Below, piece by piece: positions 2,362-64,000 of a DNA stretch of 64,000 bases (position 1 is its first letter; the number at the start of each line of letters is the position of its first letter). Under the pieces are notes generated by a model. That model worked only from the letters and a program-made list of their open reading frames with translations, made no database searches and was not told the origin of the DNA. The stretch is taken from the NCBI GenBank assembly GCA_020832185.1, contig JAFIFE010000006.1, positions 62,001 through 126,000 of the forward strand, in the 5' to 3' direction. Both the position numbers and the translations under genes were made by a program. The DNA comes from Alkalibacterium sp. (lineage in GTDB: Bacteria; Bacillota; Bacilli; Lactobacillales; Carnobacteriaceae_A).

Positions 2362-2913
2362 ATGAATAAACCAGTTTTATTCATTCACAGTGCCGGGCCA
2401 CAGGACAAACAACAAGGAAGTACTAAATTGGTCACTTATCTGCAAAATGAGCTCAACGAGGATCATCACTTGATTATTCCTAGAATGCCTGACCCAAAGA
2501 ATCCGACATATGTTGAATGGAAGAGGGAACTGAATAAGCAACTACAGCGATTAGATGAAGAGGTCATTTTAGTAGGGCATTCATTAGGGGGATCCGTGCT
2601 GCTAAAATACCTATCTGAGGAACTGTGTGATTTAACCATTAAAGGATTGTTTGTTATCTCTTCTCCCTACTGGGGATTAGATGACAACTGGCAGCTTAAA
2701 GATTTTATGCTCAATCCTCATTTTGAGAAAAAATTACCATCTCTTCCTTGTATAACTCTTTATCATAGCCGTAATGAAAACATAGTGCCGTTTACACATC
2801 ATGAGGCCTATGCAGAAAAAATTCCACAAGCTATTTTAAGACCGCTTGAAGGAAATCGCCATTTGTTTGATGAAGGATTGCCACAGTTAGTCACCGATAT
2901 AAATGCACTTTGA
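2362..2913 (+). CDS. Alpha/beta hydrolase, RBBP9/YdeN-like
   Basis: Small serine hydrolase fold of about 183 residues. The N-terminal VLFIHSAGP strand and oxyanion segment are followed by the nucleophile elbow GHSLGGS (Ser about 74) and a C-terminal His in GNRHLFDEG. The acid position usually written DDxxVP reads NENIVP here, so Glu may replace Asp in the triad, or the activity may be altered. The start at 2362 lies eight bases after AAAGGGA; an ATG six bases earlier would be too close to it. Substrate is unknown. It is separated from the preceding lipoprotein by about 40 bases and may be cotranscribed. Confidence 0.8.
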   Translation: MNKPVLFIHSAGPQDKQQGSTKLVTYLQNELNEDHHLIIPRMPDPKNPTYVEWKRELNKQLQRLDEEVILVGHSLGGSVLLKYLSEELCDLTIKGLFVISSPYWGLDDNWQLKDFMLNPHFEKKLPSLPCITLYHSRNENIVPFTHHEAYAEKIPQAILRPLEGNRHLFDEGLPQLVTDINAL

Positions 2914-2993
2914 CCACATCTGTCTATCTGCATTAATTGAATAGAGCTATTAGTCCAATTGCCTATAGACCCATTTATGATCGTCAATCAATG

Positions 2994-3049
2994 AAAAATA
3001 CACGTCCATTACTGCACACAAAAGGTCAGTAGTAGAAGTGTATTTTTTT
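2994..3049. terminator. Bidirectional terminator between convergent genes
   Basis: AAAATACAC pairs with GTGTATTTT, with ACTG/CAGT inside, and T-runs in both directions. It serves the hydrolase on the plus strand and the DUF4336 gene on the minus strand. Confidence 0.8.
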
Positions 3050-52860: not shown

Positions 52861-53346
52861 GTGGCAACATTCGAAGAAATATATGAACTGTATTTCAAAG
52901 ATGTGTATCTGTTTGTCTTTAGTTTATCAAAGGATAAACACATAGCAGAAGATATCACATCTGAAACATTTCTGAAAGCATTGAGTGCGCTGGATACGTA
53001 TAGAGGGGAGAGTGATGTAAAAGTCTGGCTTTTTCAGATCGCTAAGAATACCTATTTTTCCTATTTACGGAAACACCAGAAAGAAACGGCTTTGGATATG
53101 ATCAGTGACATTGAAGATACACTAAATATTGAGAAAATAGTCTCTTCAGCTGATGAATCGATGAGTGTACATAAAGTACTGCACATGTTGCCTGAACCCT
53201 ATAAAGAAGTATTTACCTTAAGGGTTTTTGGAAATCTGAGCTTCAAGCAGATAGCTGAGGTATTCGGGAAAACGGATAACTGGGCGTGTGTCACTTTCTA
53301 TAGAGCCAAACAAAAAATAAGAGACGAAATGAGGAAACACGAATGA
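52861..53346 (+). CDS. ECF-type RNA polymerase sigma factor
   Basis: Sigma-70 family factor of 161 residues. Region 2 (about 5-70) contains DVYLFVFSLSKDKHIAEDITSETF and VKVWLFQIAKNTYFSYLRKH; region 4 (about 105-155) contains MLPEPYKEVFTLRVFGNLSF and QIAEVFGKTDNWACVTFYRAKQ-like DNA recognition helix. GTG start at 52861 after AGGAGGTGAG. The next gene encodes a zinc-finger anti-sigma factor overlapping by four bases, the usual regulatory pair. The inducing signal is unknown. Confidence 0.92.
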   Translation: MATFEEIYELYFKDVYLFVFSLSKDKHIAEDITSETFLKALSALDTYRGESDVKVWLFQIAKNTYFSYLRKHQKETALDMISDIEDTLNIEKIVSSADESMSVHKVLHMLPEPYKEVFTLRVFGNLSFKQIAEVFGKTDNWACVTFYRAKQKIRDEMRKHE

Positions 53347-54260
53347 GACTATCGTGCGATGTGATAAAAGACTTGACGCCATTATATGCTGAAGGGATGC
53401 TCAGTGAGACATCTGTTGATCTGGTAGAGGAACATCTTGAAGAGTGTGAGGACTGTCAGCTATACTTACAGACAATGAATCAGAAGCAGGACGTTCCAGA
53501 AGATCACAGTGTACTCCCTTTGTTAAAAATGAAAAATCTATTGAGAAAGAAAAAAGCTGTAGCAATAGGAGTCGCTATAGCTTTGACACTCCTGTTCAGT
53601 GCTCTATTCTTTTCTTTTTTAAGCGCACCTGATTATATCCCTTATTCTGAAGGCTTGCTGGAAGTGACCGAACTCTCTGATGGGTCGATCATCGTTCAAA
53701 TGAATCAGGAGGTTCATGGATATGACATAAACGAAACCTCCTCAGAAGATGGAGACGGTTCTGTGTATCATGTGACGACCTGGACGACTACTCTAGGAGA
53801 GGCAGGACTGTCTGATGGAGTGGATAGAATCGTCCTGACTAATGAGGAAGAGTCAGTTGCTTCTGTGTATTATTACCAGACGGATGGAACGCTTGATACG
53901 CTGATTCATGGAAGGAATGAGAATATAAATGGGGGGACAATGATTCTGCCAAGATTGAATTTGACTTATTACTTTGCAGCTGCCGGAATTGTGATGGTGA
54001 CGTCATTAATAGCAGTGCTTGTTTTTCGAAAGCATAATATAATTGCTCGAGGATTATTGGTCATTCTATTAGTTTCAACTTCGTATATCGTCTCTCATAT
54101 GATTGTCAGAGGAATGACCTCTGCATCGTATCAGTCGACAAGAGATCTGCTGGCTATATTAAGCATTACCCTCCCTCTATCAGCGCTGATTTATTTTGCA
54201 ACAGTAAGCTATACTATAAGAAAAGAACGCCAGACTGCAGAAAAAGTGAATGATAAGTAA
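53343..54260 (+). CDS. Zinc-finger anti-sigma factor, membrane-bound
   Basis: Protein of 305 residues. The N-terminus is a zf-HC2 anti-sigma domain with Cys5, His32, Cys36 and Cys39 (HLEECEDCQLY). A transmembrane helix follows (about 72-93), then an outside domain (95-205) and three more hydrophobic segments (about 207-228, 233-256, 265-285). Binding the sigma factor at the membrane until a signal arrives is the expected role. Start ATG overlaps the sigma stop (ATGA). The four-helix layout is longer than in simple single-pass anti-sigma factors. Confidence 0.87.
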   Translation: MRLSCDVIKDLTPLYAEGMLSETSVDLVEEHLEECEDCQLYLQTMNQKQDVPEDHSVLPLLKMKNLLRKKKAVAIGVAIALTLLFSALFFSFLSAPDYIPYSEGLLEVTELSDGSIIVQMNQEVHGYDINETSSEDGDGSVYHVTTWTTTLGEAGLSDGVDRIVLTNEEESVASVYYYQTDGTLDTLIHGRNENINGGTMILPRLNLTYYFAAAGIVMVTSLIAVLVFRKHNIIARGLLVILLVSTSYIVSHMIVRGMTSASYQSTRDLLAILSITLPLSALIYFATVSYTIRKERQTAEKVNDK

Positions 54261-54384
54261 AAAAAGTTGAAGCCTGACTGTAACTGACTATATACAATCA
54301 ATTGTTGAATAAGGAAGGGATACAGTAATAGTAGGAAACTACGAGTCAAGAAATGAAAAATACTTTCTTTCTCAATTTTATTCC

Positions 54385-54413
54385 TTGACTTTAAAAAATA
54401 GACTCCCTATAAT
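54385..54413 (+). promoter_or_regulatory. Promoter of the trp operon and its leader
   Basis: -35 TTGACT, 17-base spacer, -10 TATAAT. Transcription should begin near 54420. I find no convincing second promoter between the leader terminator and the T-box, so both lie on one transcript. Confidence 0.8.
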
Positions 54414-54445
54414 GAGAAACAATTCATAAAACGATTAAAAAGAAA

Positions 54446-54588
54446 GGAGGATCACTCAATTATGGCTAACAATTCATTCATCCAATTGACTGTGCACTAT
54501 TCATGGCAAAGCTGGGGCGTCGACGTACGCGCTGGTTATTGGCGTTGCGCAAAAATTGAATGAGTGAATCCTAAATGAGTGATTCTCC
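54446..54588 (+). promoter_or_regulatory. Shine-Dalgarno/anti-Shine-Dalgarno element in the trp leader
   Basis: The leader frame's ribosome binding site region GGAGGATCACTC (54446-54457) can pair over its full length with GAGTGATTCTCC (54577-54588, one G-U). It can also pair with a second copy GAGTGAATCCT (54562-54572), which starts at the leader stop codon. The two downstream copies are a near-direct repeat, so translation of the leader frame could be switched by RNA folding or ribosome position. Confidence 0.6.
54462..54563 (+). CDS. Putative Trp-containing leader peptide of the trp operon
   Basis: Frame of 33 codons with three Trp codons (15, 18 and 27, at 54504, 54513 and 54540), starting at ATG 11 bases after AAAGGAGG and about 40 bases after the predicted transcription start. 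It ends at TGA 54561, which overlaps an anti-Shine-Dalgarno copy. Trp frequency (3 of 33) is high for a random frame. It may be a regulatory leader peptide or an arrest peptide like TnaC; it could also be a small secreted or bacteriocin-like peptide, but no signal is seen. Confidence 0.55.
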   Translation: MANNSFIQLTVHYSWQSWGVDVRAGYWRCAKIE

Positions 54589-54679
54589 GGTATACACAAA
54601 AGGCATATCTGTAGGGAAGTGTAGCTTCCGTTTACTGTTTTAAAGGGGGGATTGTCCCTGGAGCAGTGTAGATAAGTCA

Positions 54680-54726
54680 TTCTGCAAAGGCAGAAACTCA
54701 TTTAATATGGGTTTCTGTCTTTTTTT
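54680..54726 (+). terminator. Leader attenuator of the trp operon (first terminator)
   Basis: AGGCAGAAACTC (54688-54699) pairs with GGGTTTCTGTCT (54709-54720), followed by a T-run to 54726. TTCTGC (54680-54685) and GCAGAA (54690-54695) form a competing hairpin that uses the same bases, so terminator and antiterminator are mutually exclusive. Confidence 0.78.
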
Positions 54727-54737
54727 AATATCCGATC

Positions 54738-54973
54738 CACACATAAGAGTAGTACATTCACCCATCTCATTACAGAGAACTTGCGACACTGAGAGGCAAG
54801 TATGAGAAGTGAATGGAATGGACTTATGTGAATCTACCTGAAGCACAGTAGGGTAGGTCGATGCATCCCCGTTACCGGATGAGAGTGTAGAAGAGCAGTC
54901 TTCTAAATTGTGGTGGTACCGCGGTATTTATATCGTCCCTCAGTAGTGTAATAGCTAGTGGGGGGCTTTTTTT
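54738..54973 (+). promoter_or_regulatory. T-box riboswitch (tRNA-Trp specific) controlling trpEGDCFBA
   Basis: Stem I is closed by ACATAAG (54741-54747) with CTTATGT (54823-54829). Above it, AGTAGTA faces GAATGGA, giving a loop-E-like specifier loop with codon UGG (Trp), then CATTCAC pairs with GTGAATG. Further hairpins CTCAT/ATGAG and ACTTGC/GCAAGT and a stem III CTACC/GGTAG follow. The T-box core TGGTGGTACCGCGG is at 54911-54924. The terminator uses CGTCCCTC and GGGGGGC before T7 (54967-54973). Uncharged tRNA-Trp should favour the antiterminator. Confidence 0.93.
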
Positions 54974-55015
54974 ATGCAAAAAATACAGCTAATCAAAATT
55001 AGAGGAGAGAAAAAG

Positions 55016-56383
55016 ATGAGTATAGAGTATAAAACGAAACAGATCAATGGAGATATGCTGACACCTATTTCAGTGTATCAGCGCTTGATCGGAGAAAAGA
55101 AATTCATCCTAGAAAGTTCAAGCGGACATGGTGAAAAAGGGCGGTATTCCTTTATTGGAATGAACCCGTATAAAGAAATTATCGGTGACGGACATGTGGT
55201 CACAGTAAAAGAAGGCAGTCGCGAGAAAACAGTTCATAAAAAACCGCTGGAAGTAGTGAAAGAACATATTCCGAATGTGTCACTGGATTTGCCTTTTCCC
55301 TTCTATGGAGGCGCCATTGGGTACATTGGGTACGATGCGATTCATGAATACGAGGACATTGGTGAACGGCTAAATGATGAAATTGAGATGCCGGATATTC
55401 ACCTGATGTTCTATAAGGAACTCGTTGTTTTTGATCATGTGAAACAGGAAGTCACCATTGTGGCACTGGCAATTGATGGAAGGAAAAACCTGGATCAGCG
55501 CATCCAGACCTTTGAATGCATGATCAATCAGCCTGTAGATGAACAAGTGGAGGAGCTGACGCCTCTTGAGTTTACCACTGGTACAGATAAGGAAACGTTT
55601 ATGGCACTGGTCAAAAAAGTGAAACAGCACATTATTGATGGGGACATTTTTCAGGCTGTGTTGTCTCAACGAATGAAGGCGACCTTTGAAGTGGATCCTT
55701 TTACCTTCTACCGAAAACTGAGAGTATCGAACCCTTCACCTTACATGTTCTTCGTCGATTTCAAGGACTATATAGTGCTGGGTGCCTCACCTGAAAGTCT
55801 GATCAAAGTGACAGGGGACACAGTCACTACTAATCCGATTGCGGGGACACGTCCAAGAGGTGCAACAGTAGAGGAAGACGAGGCCCTTGCACACGAGTTG
55901 CTTACGGACGAAAAGGAATGTGCCGAACATAAGATGCTGGTGGACTTAAGCCGAAACGACCTGGGACGTGTGTCTCAAATCGGCTCAATCTCCATCGATA
56001 CATTTATGGAAATTGGACGCTTCCAGCACGTGATGCACATTGTCTCAGAAGTGAGCGGGACCTTGGCAGAAGGCATGACAGGCTTGGATGCACTGACCAC
56101 GACCTTACCGGCTGGAACAGTATCAGGCGCACCGAAAATTCGAGCGATGCAGATCGTCAATGAACTGGAAGACAATCTGCGAGGCGTATATGCCGGATCA
56201 ATCGGCTACATTAATTTAAATGGCGATCTGGATCTGGCATTAGCTATTCGGACAATGGTCGTTAAGGATAAAACGGCGTATGTTCAGGCAGGTGCAGGCA
56301 TCGTCTATGATTCTGATCCGGCAACGGAATATCAGGAAACCTTAAATAAAGCAAAATCCCTACTGGAGGTTGGACAAAAATGA
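55016..56383 (+). CDS. trpE: Anthranilate synthase component I
   Basis: Chorismate-utilising subunit of 455 residues that, with TrpG, makes anthranilate. The N-terminal ILESS (31-35) is the tryptophan feedback site motif. The C-terminal chorismate-binding domain has SPYMFFVDFKDYIVLGASPE, NPIAGTRPRG, HKMLVDLSRNDLGRV and TLPAGTVSGAPKIRAMQ. Start at ATG 55016 after AGAGGAGAG; an in-frame ATG at 54974 sits right after the T-box terminator and has no ribosome binding site. First gene of the operon. Confidence 0.96.
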   Translation: MSIEYKTKQINGDMLTPISVYQRLIGEKKFILESSSGHGEKGRYSFIGMNPYKEIIGDGHVVTVKEGSREKTVHKKPLEVVKEHIPNVSLDLPFPFYGGAIGYIGYDAIHEYEDIGERLNDEIEMPDIHLMFYKELVVFDHVKQEVTIVALAIDGRKNLDQRIQTFECMINQPVDEQVEELTPLEFTTGTDKETFMALVKKVKQHIIDGDIFQAVLSQRMKATFEVDPFTFYRKLRVSNPSPYMFFVDFKDYIVLGASPESLIKVTGDTVTTNPIAGTRPRGATVEEDEALAHELLTDEKECAEHKMLVDLSRNDLGRVSQIGSISIDTFMEIGRFQHVMHIVSEVSGTLAEGMTGLDALTTTLPAGTVSGAPKIRAMQIVNELEDNLRGVYAGSIGYINLNGDLDLALAIRTMVVKDKTAYVQAGAGIVYDSDPATEYQETLNKAKSLLEVGQK

Positions 56384-61536: not shown

Positions 61537-62997
61537 ATGAATACGATAAAAAACTGGGCGGACATTGCTTTGAGAGGAACATTAATCATCTTTCTCCCTC
61601 TTCTGCTGCTGCTTTACATTACATATAATCCTATTTTTACCATTGATTTAACTATTCACGGGGTGTTTATCTTTCTTTTTCTGGCTGGCTTCCTCAGGTG
61701 GCTGATTGATAAATACAGACACCAGCGCGTTGAAGAAGAGGTTCAAAGTTTTGACGGGTTGGCTGCTCTCATCGAACAAGGGAAATGGGAAGTAGTCGAG
61801 CATGGCCAAGATAAACTGGTGATCAGACCGACATTCGATGCCCCATTCAATTATGTCCTCAATGATAAAATAACCTTGCGCTATACATCCCGTATGGCAG
61901 TTATCGAAGGCCCTAAGTATTATATCAACATGCTGGCTAAAACTATACGTGGAGAAGAAATCAAGTGGATAAGAAGAGGGACCGCATTAGTAAAAGACGT
62001 GATTTTTATTTCTATAGTCGCCATGCCACTCCTTCTCGGTGGATCCAATGTGTTCTGGAGTTACAATGTGTACCGTCATAATGCAAGACCTGCTTCCGCC
62101 ATTGAAATAGAAAGACCAGAATCAGATGTAAGTGGAAATCGGCCGGAAAACAGTCTGAATCGTGGACAGGCAGTAGAAAACGAAACATTTATCTTTTATG
62201 TAGAGAATCAGCTGAATCTCGTCAGGACAAATAAGGCCTTTGAGAGTAAAGAGTATCTGATTCAAAAAGAAGGTGGCCATGGAATAGGGGATCTGAATAT
62301 AGTAGAAGACTGGCTGTACTTTACGGAAGGTGAAGTCCTTAAACGCATGCGTTTCGACGGGACAGAAGAGACCCCATTGTACGACTTGGGTTATCTGTTG
62401 AACATGCGAATCCAGGGAAACTGGATTTATTTTGAAAGCATGGAAGATGGCTTCAGCATCTATAAAATGGATCTCAATGGACAACACCTCGGAAAAGTAC
62501 TGGACGCTTCGGGAATAGGAATGACTATTCATGAAGACCGTCTCTTAGTGAGTCAAGAAGATAACGATCACCCACGAATCGAAAGTTATGACCTTGAGGG
62601 TGGAGACAGGCAGGACGTTCTTGATGTCTATGCGCATGATGTAATAGTCTGGGAGGATGCTTACTATTACATTGGTGAAGACTCCGCTCTTTACCGTAGT
62701 GAAAAAGGAGAAACAGCTGAGCCGCAGTTGCTGGTCAATGAAGAGGTTGCCTCATTTATACCTACTGATGAAAGCCTGATTTATACTCTTCTTTCAGAGG
62801 AAAACAGGTATTACAGCACGGGTCTTTATCAGGTGAACTTTGATGGGACCGGACAAGCATTGTTATCCGCCTCAAATGATGTGGGTGGCTTTTCAAGAAT
62901 TGGCGATTCTATCTTATTTTCTGCTCAAGATGGCTACGGCATGTATCAGGAAAAAATACTTGATTTGGACAGTGGACGTATTGACCTGCTGAAGTAA
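61537..62997 (+). CDS. Membrane protein with C-terminal propeller-like domain (DUF5050-like)
   Basis: Protein of 486 residues. Two N-terminal transmembrane helices (about 13-29 and 36-56) precede a cytosolic domain of about 90 residues (EEVQSFDGLAALIEQGKWEV), a third helix (about 150-170) and an outside domain (about 210-486). The outside part is made of repeated blades of the form WIYFESMEDGFSIYKMDLNG and WLYFTEGEVLKRMRFDGTE, which resemble DUF5050 propeller repeats. Function unknown. ACTGGAGGA precedes ATG. A paralogue follows in the same direction. Confidence 0.75.
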   Translation: MNTIKNWADIALRGTLIIFLPLLLLLYITYNPIFTIDLTIHGVFIFLFLAGFLRWLIDKYRHQRVEEEVQSFDGLAALIEQGKWEVVEHGQDKLVIRPTFDAPFNYVLNDKITLRYTSRMAVIEGPKYYINMLAKTIRGEEIKWIRRGTALVKDVIFISIVAMPLLLGGSNVFWSYNVYRHNARPASAIEIERPESDVSGNRPENSLNRGQAVENETFIFYVENQLNLVRTNKAFESKEYLIQKEGGHGIGDLNIVEDWLYFTEGEVLKRMRFDGTEETPLYDLGYLLNMRIQGNWIYFESMEDGFSIYKMDLNGQHLGKVLDASGIGMTIHEDRLLVSQEDNDHPRIESYDLEGGDRQDVLDVYAHDVIVWEDAYYYIGEDSALYRSEKGETAEPQLLVNEEVASFIPTDESLIYTLLSEENRYYSTGLYQVNFDGTGQALLSASNDVGGFSRIGDSILFSAQDGYGMYQEKILDLDSGRIDLLK

Positions 62998-63094
62998 AGA
63001 CAAGGACGACCCCGGATTTATTGAGTGGGAAACGCCTGGAGCTATCTATAAATAAAGTATGCTCGGCTTTTAAAAAGAAAAGAGGAACAGTCTA

Positions 63095-64000
63095 ATGAAT
63101 AAAAAACGGGACTATTTAACTATCGGCATACGCACGACCCTGATTATTTTTATCCCTACCATGCTGATGATGTCAGTCATCTATCAGCTCGTTTTTGGTT
63201 CCACGATCCGATTTGACTGGTTTACAGTGTTGATGACACTGACTTTCTTTCTGCAGCTGATGATCAAACGTTACCAGACTCACGTGCTGTACAGGGACGT
63301 CAGTAGTGTAAAGCACCTGGAACACAAACTGCTGGACAACAACTGGGAAGTGACCGACCGCAGAAGAGGCGGGTGGAGCGTAAAACCTGCTTTTGATCGT
63401 CCATTAAGCTTTATACTTAACGGGACAATCGATATACAGTATCTGAATCAGAGAGTCAGGATCGAAGGGCCTACTCTTTATGTGGAAGCTTTGGGAAAAG
63501 AACTGCTTGGGGAGAGCAATCATAACAAAGAATCGGTAAAAACAAAACTGATGATCCTCGTGTCTGCTTTTATCGTACTAATGCCTTTTATCAGCGAGAG
63601 CGGCATCCTCTGGGAAGTGAAAGTATTGATGCATAATGTTCAGGCCAGTGAGACCCCTCCACTGACGTTCATGAATAAGACTCAAAGAGGAAATTCAGTC
63701 GAAAACAGTACAACCGGTGGGTACGGTGTATCAGATGATGAGTATTTCTATCTCATCGAGTATCAGGACAGTTTGGCTAAAATCAACAGAACCACAAACG
63801 AAAAAGAGTACAATCTCCAGTATGCCCCTGACTACTGGCTGGGAGAACTAAACCTGGTAAACGACTGGTTGTATTATACGAATATCGAAAGTTTGAACCG
63901 TATTAAAATAGATGGAACGGATGAACAGGTCATTTATGACTTAGGGTACCTGTCTGACGTCCACATTGTTAAGGACTGGATCTATTTTATCAATGAAGCA
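63095..64000 (+). CDS. Paralogous membrane protein with propeller-like domain (partial)
   Basis: Frame open from ATG 63095, after AAGAGGAAC, to the window end (302 codons, no stop), so the C-terminus is missing. It has the same layout as the preceding gene: two N-terminal helices (about 9-27 and 37-53), a cytosolic domain (LLDNNWEVTDRRRGGWSVKP corresponds to the GKWEV region upstream), a third helix near 155 and blades such as WLYYTNIESLNRIKIDGTDE. The proteins are clearly related but well diverged, pointing to an old tandem duplication. Confidence 0.78.
   Translation, partial: MNKKRDYLTIGIRTTLIIFIPTMLMMSVIYQLVFGSTIRFDWFTVLMTLTFFLQLMIKRYQTHVLYRDVSSVKHLEHKLLDNNWEVTDRRRGGWSVKPAFDRPLSFILNGTIDIQYLNQRVRIEGPTLYVEALGKELLGESNHNKESVKTKLMILVSAFIVLMPFISESGILWEVKVLMHNVQASETPPLTFMNKTQRGNSVENSTTGGYGVSDDEYFYLIEYQDSLAKINRTTNEKEYNLQYAPDYWLGELNLVNDWLYYTNIESLNRIKIDGTDEQVIYDLGYLSDVHIVKDWIYFINEA

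Follow-up and report, generated by a model that had tools for sequence, protein, structure and literature searches.

The window analysed here, a 64,000-nucleotide stretch of an Alkalibacterium genome, carries a trp operon with the gene order trpEGDCFBA (by eye) behind a single long leader. The first gene, trpE (55016–56383, plus strand; identity confirmed by Pfam, start picked by eye in a mechanical frame from 54974), is preceded, from 5′ to 3′, by a promoter, an extended Shine–Dalgarno (SD) sequence, a short leader frame, segment B, a linker, segment E, a first terminator, a T-box, and a second terminator. This anatomy is real and conserved, and the layout drawn up in the first-pass annotation (promoter, frame with three Trp codons, terminator, UGG T-box, and trpE) was confirmed by scans, Rfam, and alignment of relatives. 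The promoter (TTGACT-17-TATAAT, 54385–54413, plus strand) has 11 of 12 consensus matches and is the sole plus-strand match within 54000–55600. Its pattern, TTGAC(A/T)-17-TATAAT, is present in all seven leaders compared, the window's among them, and scan and conservation together bear out the single consensus promoter noticed at first. The number of promoter sites alone is unremarkable, with three found on both strands against a mean of 4.1 in shuffled sequences. Directly upstream of the promoter, a sigma-70-family sigma factor gene overlaps a gene with a zf-HC2 domain (52861–54260), the two being a likely sigma/anti-sigma pair. Past trpA lie two successive genes (61537–64000) that are alike by eye, the first with a DUF5050 domain.

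The element nearest to trpE is a T-box leader (RF00230; 54730–54943, plus strand; 109.7 bits against a gathering score of 93, model positions 1–219) with the specifier UGG and the T-box bulge sequence GUGGUGGUACCGCGG (54910–54924, plus strand) inside it. The second terminator, the T-box's own (54934–54973, plus strand), was read by eye and was unflagged by the terminator scan. At the other Alkalibacterium loci, the T-box scored over gathering in five out of five (98–121 bits), and the specifier stands in the context GGAA-UGG-(A/G)C in all six T-boxes of the genus, which fits the regulated pathway; the complete UGG T-box followed by trpE that had been proposed is hence present. The bulge at window positions 54914–54917 reads UGGU in all six species. 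The spacing is less uniform: about 50 additional bases separate the T-box from the first terminator in L005 (~1160–1210), and the gap from the T-box to the trpE match is about 90 bases longer in L002 (~2865–3030) than in L003. A T-box forming a separate transcript, with a start between 54727 and 54740 as the first-pass annotation had envisaged, was rejected, the sequence scan having found no promoter-like site between the two elements.

The first intrinsic terminator (54686–54726, plus strand), found by scan and aligned in 7/7 leaders, has a stem of 16 pairs, 5 of them G–C, at 54686–54722, followed by a U tract to 54726. Its 5′ arm, segment C (region 3; GGCAGAAACUCAUU, 54689–54702, plus strand), is invariant in all seven leaders while its partner, segment D (region 4), is altered at three or more sites in two species, a contrast that a second partner of C would explain. 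One alternative partner of this arm is segment B′ (AAUGAGU, 54559–54565, plus strand), which overlaps the stop codon of the leader frame and is not kept in L005. Segment E (UUCUGC, 54680–54685, plus strand) is able to pair with GCAGAA at 54690–54695, the E–C core UCUGC..AGGCAGA being present in 7/7 leaders. Of the strong terminator with a competing hairpin previously suggested at 54680–54726, the terminator is thus confirmed, and the competitor is real as a possible pairing.

The leader frame MANNSFIQLTVHYSWQSWGVDVRAGYWRCAKIE (54462–54563, plus strand) runs from the ATG at 54462 to the TGA at 54561–54563 and has 33 codons, with Trp as residues 15, 18, and 27. It is preceded, at the long spacing of 11 nt, by the extended SD sequence AAGAAAGGAGG (54440–54450, plus strand), which we take to be complementary to the 16S tail and which is identical in six of the seven leaders and replaced by ACGAGAGGAGG in L005. 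All seven leaders keep the SD sequence, the ATG, an open frame, and two or more Trp codons, Trp 15 and Trp 27 being present in every one and Trp 18 in six. Indels occur directly after the frame and in the linker but none inside the frame, and the L005 frame stops five codons later, giving five extra C-terminal residues. In dinucleotide shuffles of 54414–54729, an SD-led frame of 8–80 codons with at least three TGG appeared in 19 out of 5000 (513 out of 5000 when the SD requirement was dropped), and stop-free shuffles of the leader frame held at least three in-frame TGG in 42 out of 1673; the three-Trp frame seen at the outset is therefore SD-led and rare by chance. In a simulation that treats lineages as independent, an equal number of random substitutions left all six other frames open in 2.5% of the trials. 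Variable frame sites at codon positions 1, 2, and 3 number 13, 8, and 14, respectively. The frame has a pN/pS of 0.61, with pN of 0.121 compared with 0.111 in trpE, and pS of 0.197 compared with 0.740 in trpE. It is a fair reading of these substitutions that the frame is translated and that constraint acts more on its RNA than on its peptide. As the constraint on synonymous sites exceeds that on the peptide, we regard the dependence of the first element on translation as only likely.

In Pfam and NCBIfam searches, no family matched the peptide at the chosen thresholds. Nascent-peptide arrest, in which the peptide would stall the ribosome by itself on free Trp or another signal like TnaC, is favored by the identity of the residues W15–Q16, V20, R23–C29, and I32–E33 in all seven leader peptides. 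Against this stand the variation in the same half of the peptide (residue 22 is V, K, or T, residue 21 is D or N, and W18 becomes Q), the longer C-terminus in L005, a pN/pS of 0.59 in codons 13–33, and the direction of the response, induction at high Trp being wrong for a biosynthetic operon; we consider peptide arrest very unlikely.

The entire leader frame is enclosed by a conserved hairpin (model R1; 54442–54588, plus strand). Its closing helix, P1, is formed by segment A (region 1; 54446–54461, plus strand), consisting of the SD and the bases ahead of the start codon, as the 5′ strand, and by segment B (region 2; 54574–54588, plus strand) as the 3′ strand, which holds AUGAGUGAUUCU at 54575–54586 in 7/7 leaders. 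Helix 1 has 15 pairs, with 100% of the cells paired in the seven sequences, and the GGAGG end of the extended SD is the outermost part of the hairpin. The RNA of 54420–54728 folds at −111.1 kcal/mol (z, −7.6; equally stable shuffles, 0/100). Over the 54 consensus pairs of the hairpin, 95.5% of the cells are paired in the seven sequences, compared with 35–44% when the partners are slid. Covariation is present but modest, because the seven sequences are alike: four pairs have changes on both sides (reached in 14/500 shuffles) and the covariation score is reached by 4/500 shuffles, counts that lean in favor of the hairpin, since the sequences were aligned to fit the structure and relatedness alone can lift values above those of shuffles. 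When the frame is recoded with synonymous codons drawn evenly, the hairpin becomes weaker on average in 7/7 species (z, −1.3 to −2.8), with 1 to 29 of 300 recodings, depending on species, being as stable as the native frame. The adjoining linker (54589–54679, plus strand) has a predicted hairpin, which as a conserved feature is partly supported, its folding z ranging from 0.0 (L003) to −3.9. The mean pairwise differences among the six leaders of the genus are 0.123 for the frame, 0.524 for the linker, 0.099 for segment E with the terminator, and 0.215 for the T-box; conservation is thus stronger in the upstream element than in the adjoining T-box, save for the fast-evolving linker inside it.

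The UGG runs of the frame form part of the G–U-rich helix 4. In the one leader from outside the genus (G103, described below), AGCUGG in this helix has become AACCAA, by which three wobble pairs turn into Watson–Crick pairs, one G–C pair is lost, and Trp18 is replaced by Gln; that Trp18 was lost via these changes suggests that the RNA mattered more there. The hairpin could accordingly be imagined to sense general translation capacity through SD accessibility, with the Trp codons as a side effect of helix strands rich in UGG: the outermost strand of the helix is formed by the SD, the UGG runs fall within helix 4, and Trp18 is dispensable in G103. We attach little probability to this explanation, against which speak the rarity of an SD-led three-Trp frame (19 of the 5000 shuffles above) and its position before a trp operon.

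A further alternative is a riboswitch for Trp or a shikimate-pathway compound, in which the ligand would stabilize P1 and the frame would be incidental or serve initiation only. It would agree with a nucleotide constraint stronger than the peptide constraint, with a riboswitch-like topology, the 3′ strand of P1 doubling as antiterminator strand, and with the loss of Trp18 in G103 while the helix was kept. The hairpin is, however, a plain, extended rod in which few unpaired bases are conserved and the apical loop varies (CGACGU, CGACAA, or UAACAC), SD conservation extends past the hairpin-paired part, and the ATG and the open frame are retained in 7/7 leaders. In addition, the Rfam search of 54380–55020 gave no family match for the hairpin at E up to 10; the sub-threshold matches fall on the terminator and the T-box, and Trp_leader is not among the seven matches. 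A riboswitch seems to us quite improbable.

It is rather probable that the first attenuator is read by translation via its Trp codons and the second, the T-box, by tRNA, in series on one transcript. Three mutually exclusive pairings, 1:2, 2:3, and 3:4, are possible in 7/7 leaders in the folding model; the 2:3 strands are invariant, and hence covariation is no test of that pairing. The enterobacterial trp attenuator (trpL) operates with Trp codons in a leader frame, exclusive pairings, and a terminator. The upstream element likewise combines a short frame containing Trp codons with three mutually exclusive pairings and an intrinsic terminator before the trp genes, but differs from trpL in that region 1 lies on the SD side of the start site, which places the whole frame inside hairpin 1:2, in that the Trp codons are spaced by 3 and 9 codons instead of being adjacent, and in that a linker of 96–106 nt separates regions 2 and 3. 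In the mechanism that we infer, segment A would pair through the SD with segment B just past the stop codon, thereby enclosing the leader frame in the hairpin, with C available for terminator formation with D. Under a shortage of charged tRNA-Trp, ribosomes would stall at the Trp codons, and a second ribosome held behind, or starting at the SD, would cover A; B or B′ could then pair with C, and RNA polymerase would read past the first terminator. At the T-box, uncharged tRNA-Trp would pair with UGG and stabilize the antiterminator. Because trpE would be transcribed only after both attenuators are passed, a Trp shortage would be read twice, via translation and directly by tRNA, and the two responses would be combined.

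The folding model was evaluated with ribosomes at several positions. Without ribosomes, A–B pairing was formed in 7/7 leaders and C was not paired with B, so that terminator 1 forms in the model. With ribosomes queued to any Trp codon (P site on codon 14 or 17, so that the A site holds Trp 15 or Trp 18, or on codon 27), ACUCAU of C paired with B or B′ in 7/7 leaders, the pairing of C being weak in L005 (~2 to 3 of 7 positions). A count omitting B′, which had given little or no B–C pairing, was superseded by this recount including it. A lone stalled ribosome without a second one behind did not free B, and A–B pairing was still possible. With a ribosome at the stop codon and a queue behind it, B was freed and paired with C in 6/7 leaders; with a ribosome alone at the stop codon, A–B persisted in 6/7. 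As the queued-at-stop state would favor readthrough, termination in Trp-rich cells would need sparse loading or prompt release. Segment E paired with GCAGA in every modelled state before D was made, and is therefore a part of the antiterminator fold that is not diagnostic of the state. Once the complete terminator is available, C–D wins in every modelled scenario, with the antiterminator 7–13 kcal/mol worse, so that the switch must be kinetic, being decided during transcription. The choice is likewise made during transcription in other attenuators.

A trpE-like match was found in 50 of the 99 genomes searched (the window's own and its relatives), including 6 of the 12 inside the genus. Both the upstream element and the T-box are present in all six trpE-bearing genus genomes, and the upstream element is absent from the six genus genomes without trpE. 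The first-pass annotation had asked whether the upstream segment might be missing from relatives that keep the T-box; it is kept in every genus member with the T-box, and once also without it. Because of this co-occurrence, and because neither such a loss nor a promoter-like site between the elements turned up, the reading as two serial attenuators on one transcript ahead of trpE is well supported. Of the stacking proposed initially, the serial pair on one transcript has therefore stood (6/6 genomes), with the reading of the first member through translation of its Trp codons as a likely interpretation. In these alkali-loving lactic acid bacteria, the trp genes appear to be guarded by two successive RNA off-switches.

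In wider searches, which used strict filters and can miss diverged forms, model R1 matched 7 of 395 genomes of the order, 1 of 398 of the class (the window's own), and 1 of 18 of the family of G103 (G103 itself). Among at least 118 pattern-matched stretches, R1 was strong in four (L055, L071, L094, and L129), with weak reverse-strand matches on two of these hairpins, and the remaining 114 of those retrieved gave no R1 match at E up to 1. A mobile repeat was rejected, as the element is single-copy in each of the seven genomes carrying it.

The seventh copy, that of G103 (L162:5478–9096), belongs to another family of the same order and contains the promoter, the frame, the hairpin, and the terminator. 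Of its T-box, only the first part of stem I is recognizable by eye, and the Rfam T-box was not found in this leader at the gathering score (0/1). The downstream genes are trpE, trpG, and that of DAHP synthase, followed by apparent aroB, aroA, and aroC (the latter by eye). The trpE genes of G103 and L002 are 93% identical (pS, 0.33), while the only trpD match of G103 lies ~1.9 Mb off on the contig and is 41% identical to the window's trpD; this disparity suggests that the copy was transferred from an Alkalibacterium, the T-box being lost afterwards. The intact element beside a truncated T-box indicates that the upstream element can stand without the T-box, and it probably works alone in G103. 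It is possible, though rather unlikely in our view, that the upstream element represents a self-standing attenuator class, in which a leader frame inside a sensing hairpin closed by the ribosome-binding site would couple initiation and Trp-codon elongation to termination, which would be transferable alone as in G103, and whose RNA core may sense a ligand or delay the ribosome.

Other means of trp control were looked for in the 12 genus genomes. Control by TRAP was rejected, since mtrB was found in none of them (among 14 controls, only Bacillus subtilis matched), and so was control by TrpR, with none over the cut-off and one partial sub-threshold match (21.4 bits) in the window's genome; RNA control is therefore the expected route. 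Among the 24 other trpE loci of the order, a T-box core motif was found by pattern in all 24. Of the 20 loci scanned with Rfam, which exclude L021, L023, L025, and L029, 13 have a T-box at the gathering score and seven have none. A scan of the 24 loci that listed SD-led frames only gave three with at least two TGG, each rejected as a leader: the L010 frame sits within an upstream peptidase-like gene, the L020 frame is the tail of a longer one lying far upstream, and the L013 frame starts with TTG at the T-box core itself. No leader frame comparable to the window's was thus found among these loci by the SD-led scan.

In the leader of B. subtilis rtpA, the T-box precedes the peptide, which acts on the translation of the regulator gene. 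The transcript of this anti-TRAP leader has both a T-box for tRNA-Trp and a Trp leader peptide, giving two readings of uncharged tRNA-Trp (PMC11255114). The statement in the first-pass annotation that no example of the combination was known must thus be tempered: rtpA joins the same two components (PMC11255114), though in the other order and at the level of translation, whereas here the leader frame comes first, with its own terminator, ahead of a biosynthetic operon. Leader-peptide attenuators of trp, sharing with the upstream element the features named above for trpL, occur in Corynebacterium and Streptomyces (PMC1262725). In Firmicutes, His leader peptides are reported as replacements of T-boxes (PMC2965389); a survey of His control sought them only at loci without visible T-box or HisR control and could therefore have overlooked a stacked pair (PMC9413887). 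The ilv-leu leader of Staphylococcus aureus is Leu-rich and without T-box stem I features (PMC5794164). Salmonella mgtCBR has tandem, additive attenuators in one leader, which, unlike those described here, are both leader-frame dependent and read different signals, ATP and proline (PMC3641672). The odc1 motif (uORF-25-1) of alphaproteobacteria has a hairpin in which the ribosome-binding site is sequestered, together with a short, conserved upstream frame, but concerns another gene and other organisms, with a proposed choice of two start codons and no T-box (PMC8632094).

In the literature on T-boxes with leader peptides and trp or tandem attenuators, a search outside which most subscription papers fell, we did not recognize the present arrangement, and no paper was found on Alkalibacterium with T-box and tryptophan. 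The best reading is a translation-read Trp attenuator stacked ahead of a tRNA-read one, both being of known kinds and their stacking a new variation, with an unusual closed-hairpin form of the first. The same signal would be sensed by two serial sensors, translation and direct tRNA binding, on a biosynthetic operon of an order that usually relies on T-boxes alone, which makes it testable why both are kept: for a sharper response, for a wider range, or for separate readings of tRNA charging and translation. Because one probably transferred copy lost the T-box and kept the leader-frame attenuator, G103 offers a natural experiment.

Serial attenuators ahead of trpE also exist in the form of tandem T-boxes, thrZ and trpE of bacilli being preceded by two or three (PMC2494555); the first element here differs in not being a T-box. 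Two Rfam T-boxes are present in 8 of the 20 scanned Lactobacillales trpE loci (L008, L009, L011, L012, L014, L015, L018, and L019). In the window's own genome (G000), tandem T-box matches (L170 and L174, C19:12615–13190), scoring 105.7 bits and 87.5 bits, the latter below the cut-off, lie ahead of an apparent ABC transporter ATPase gene.
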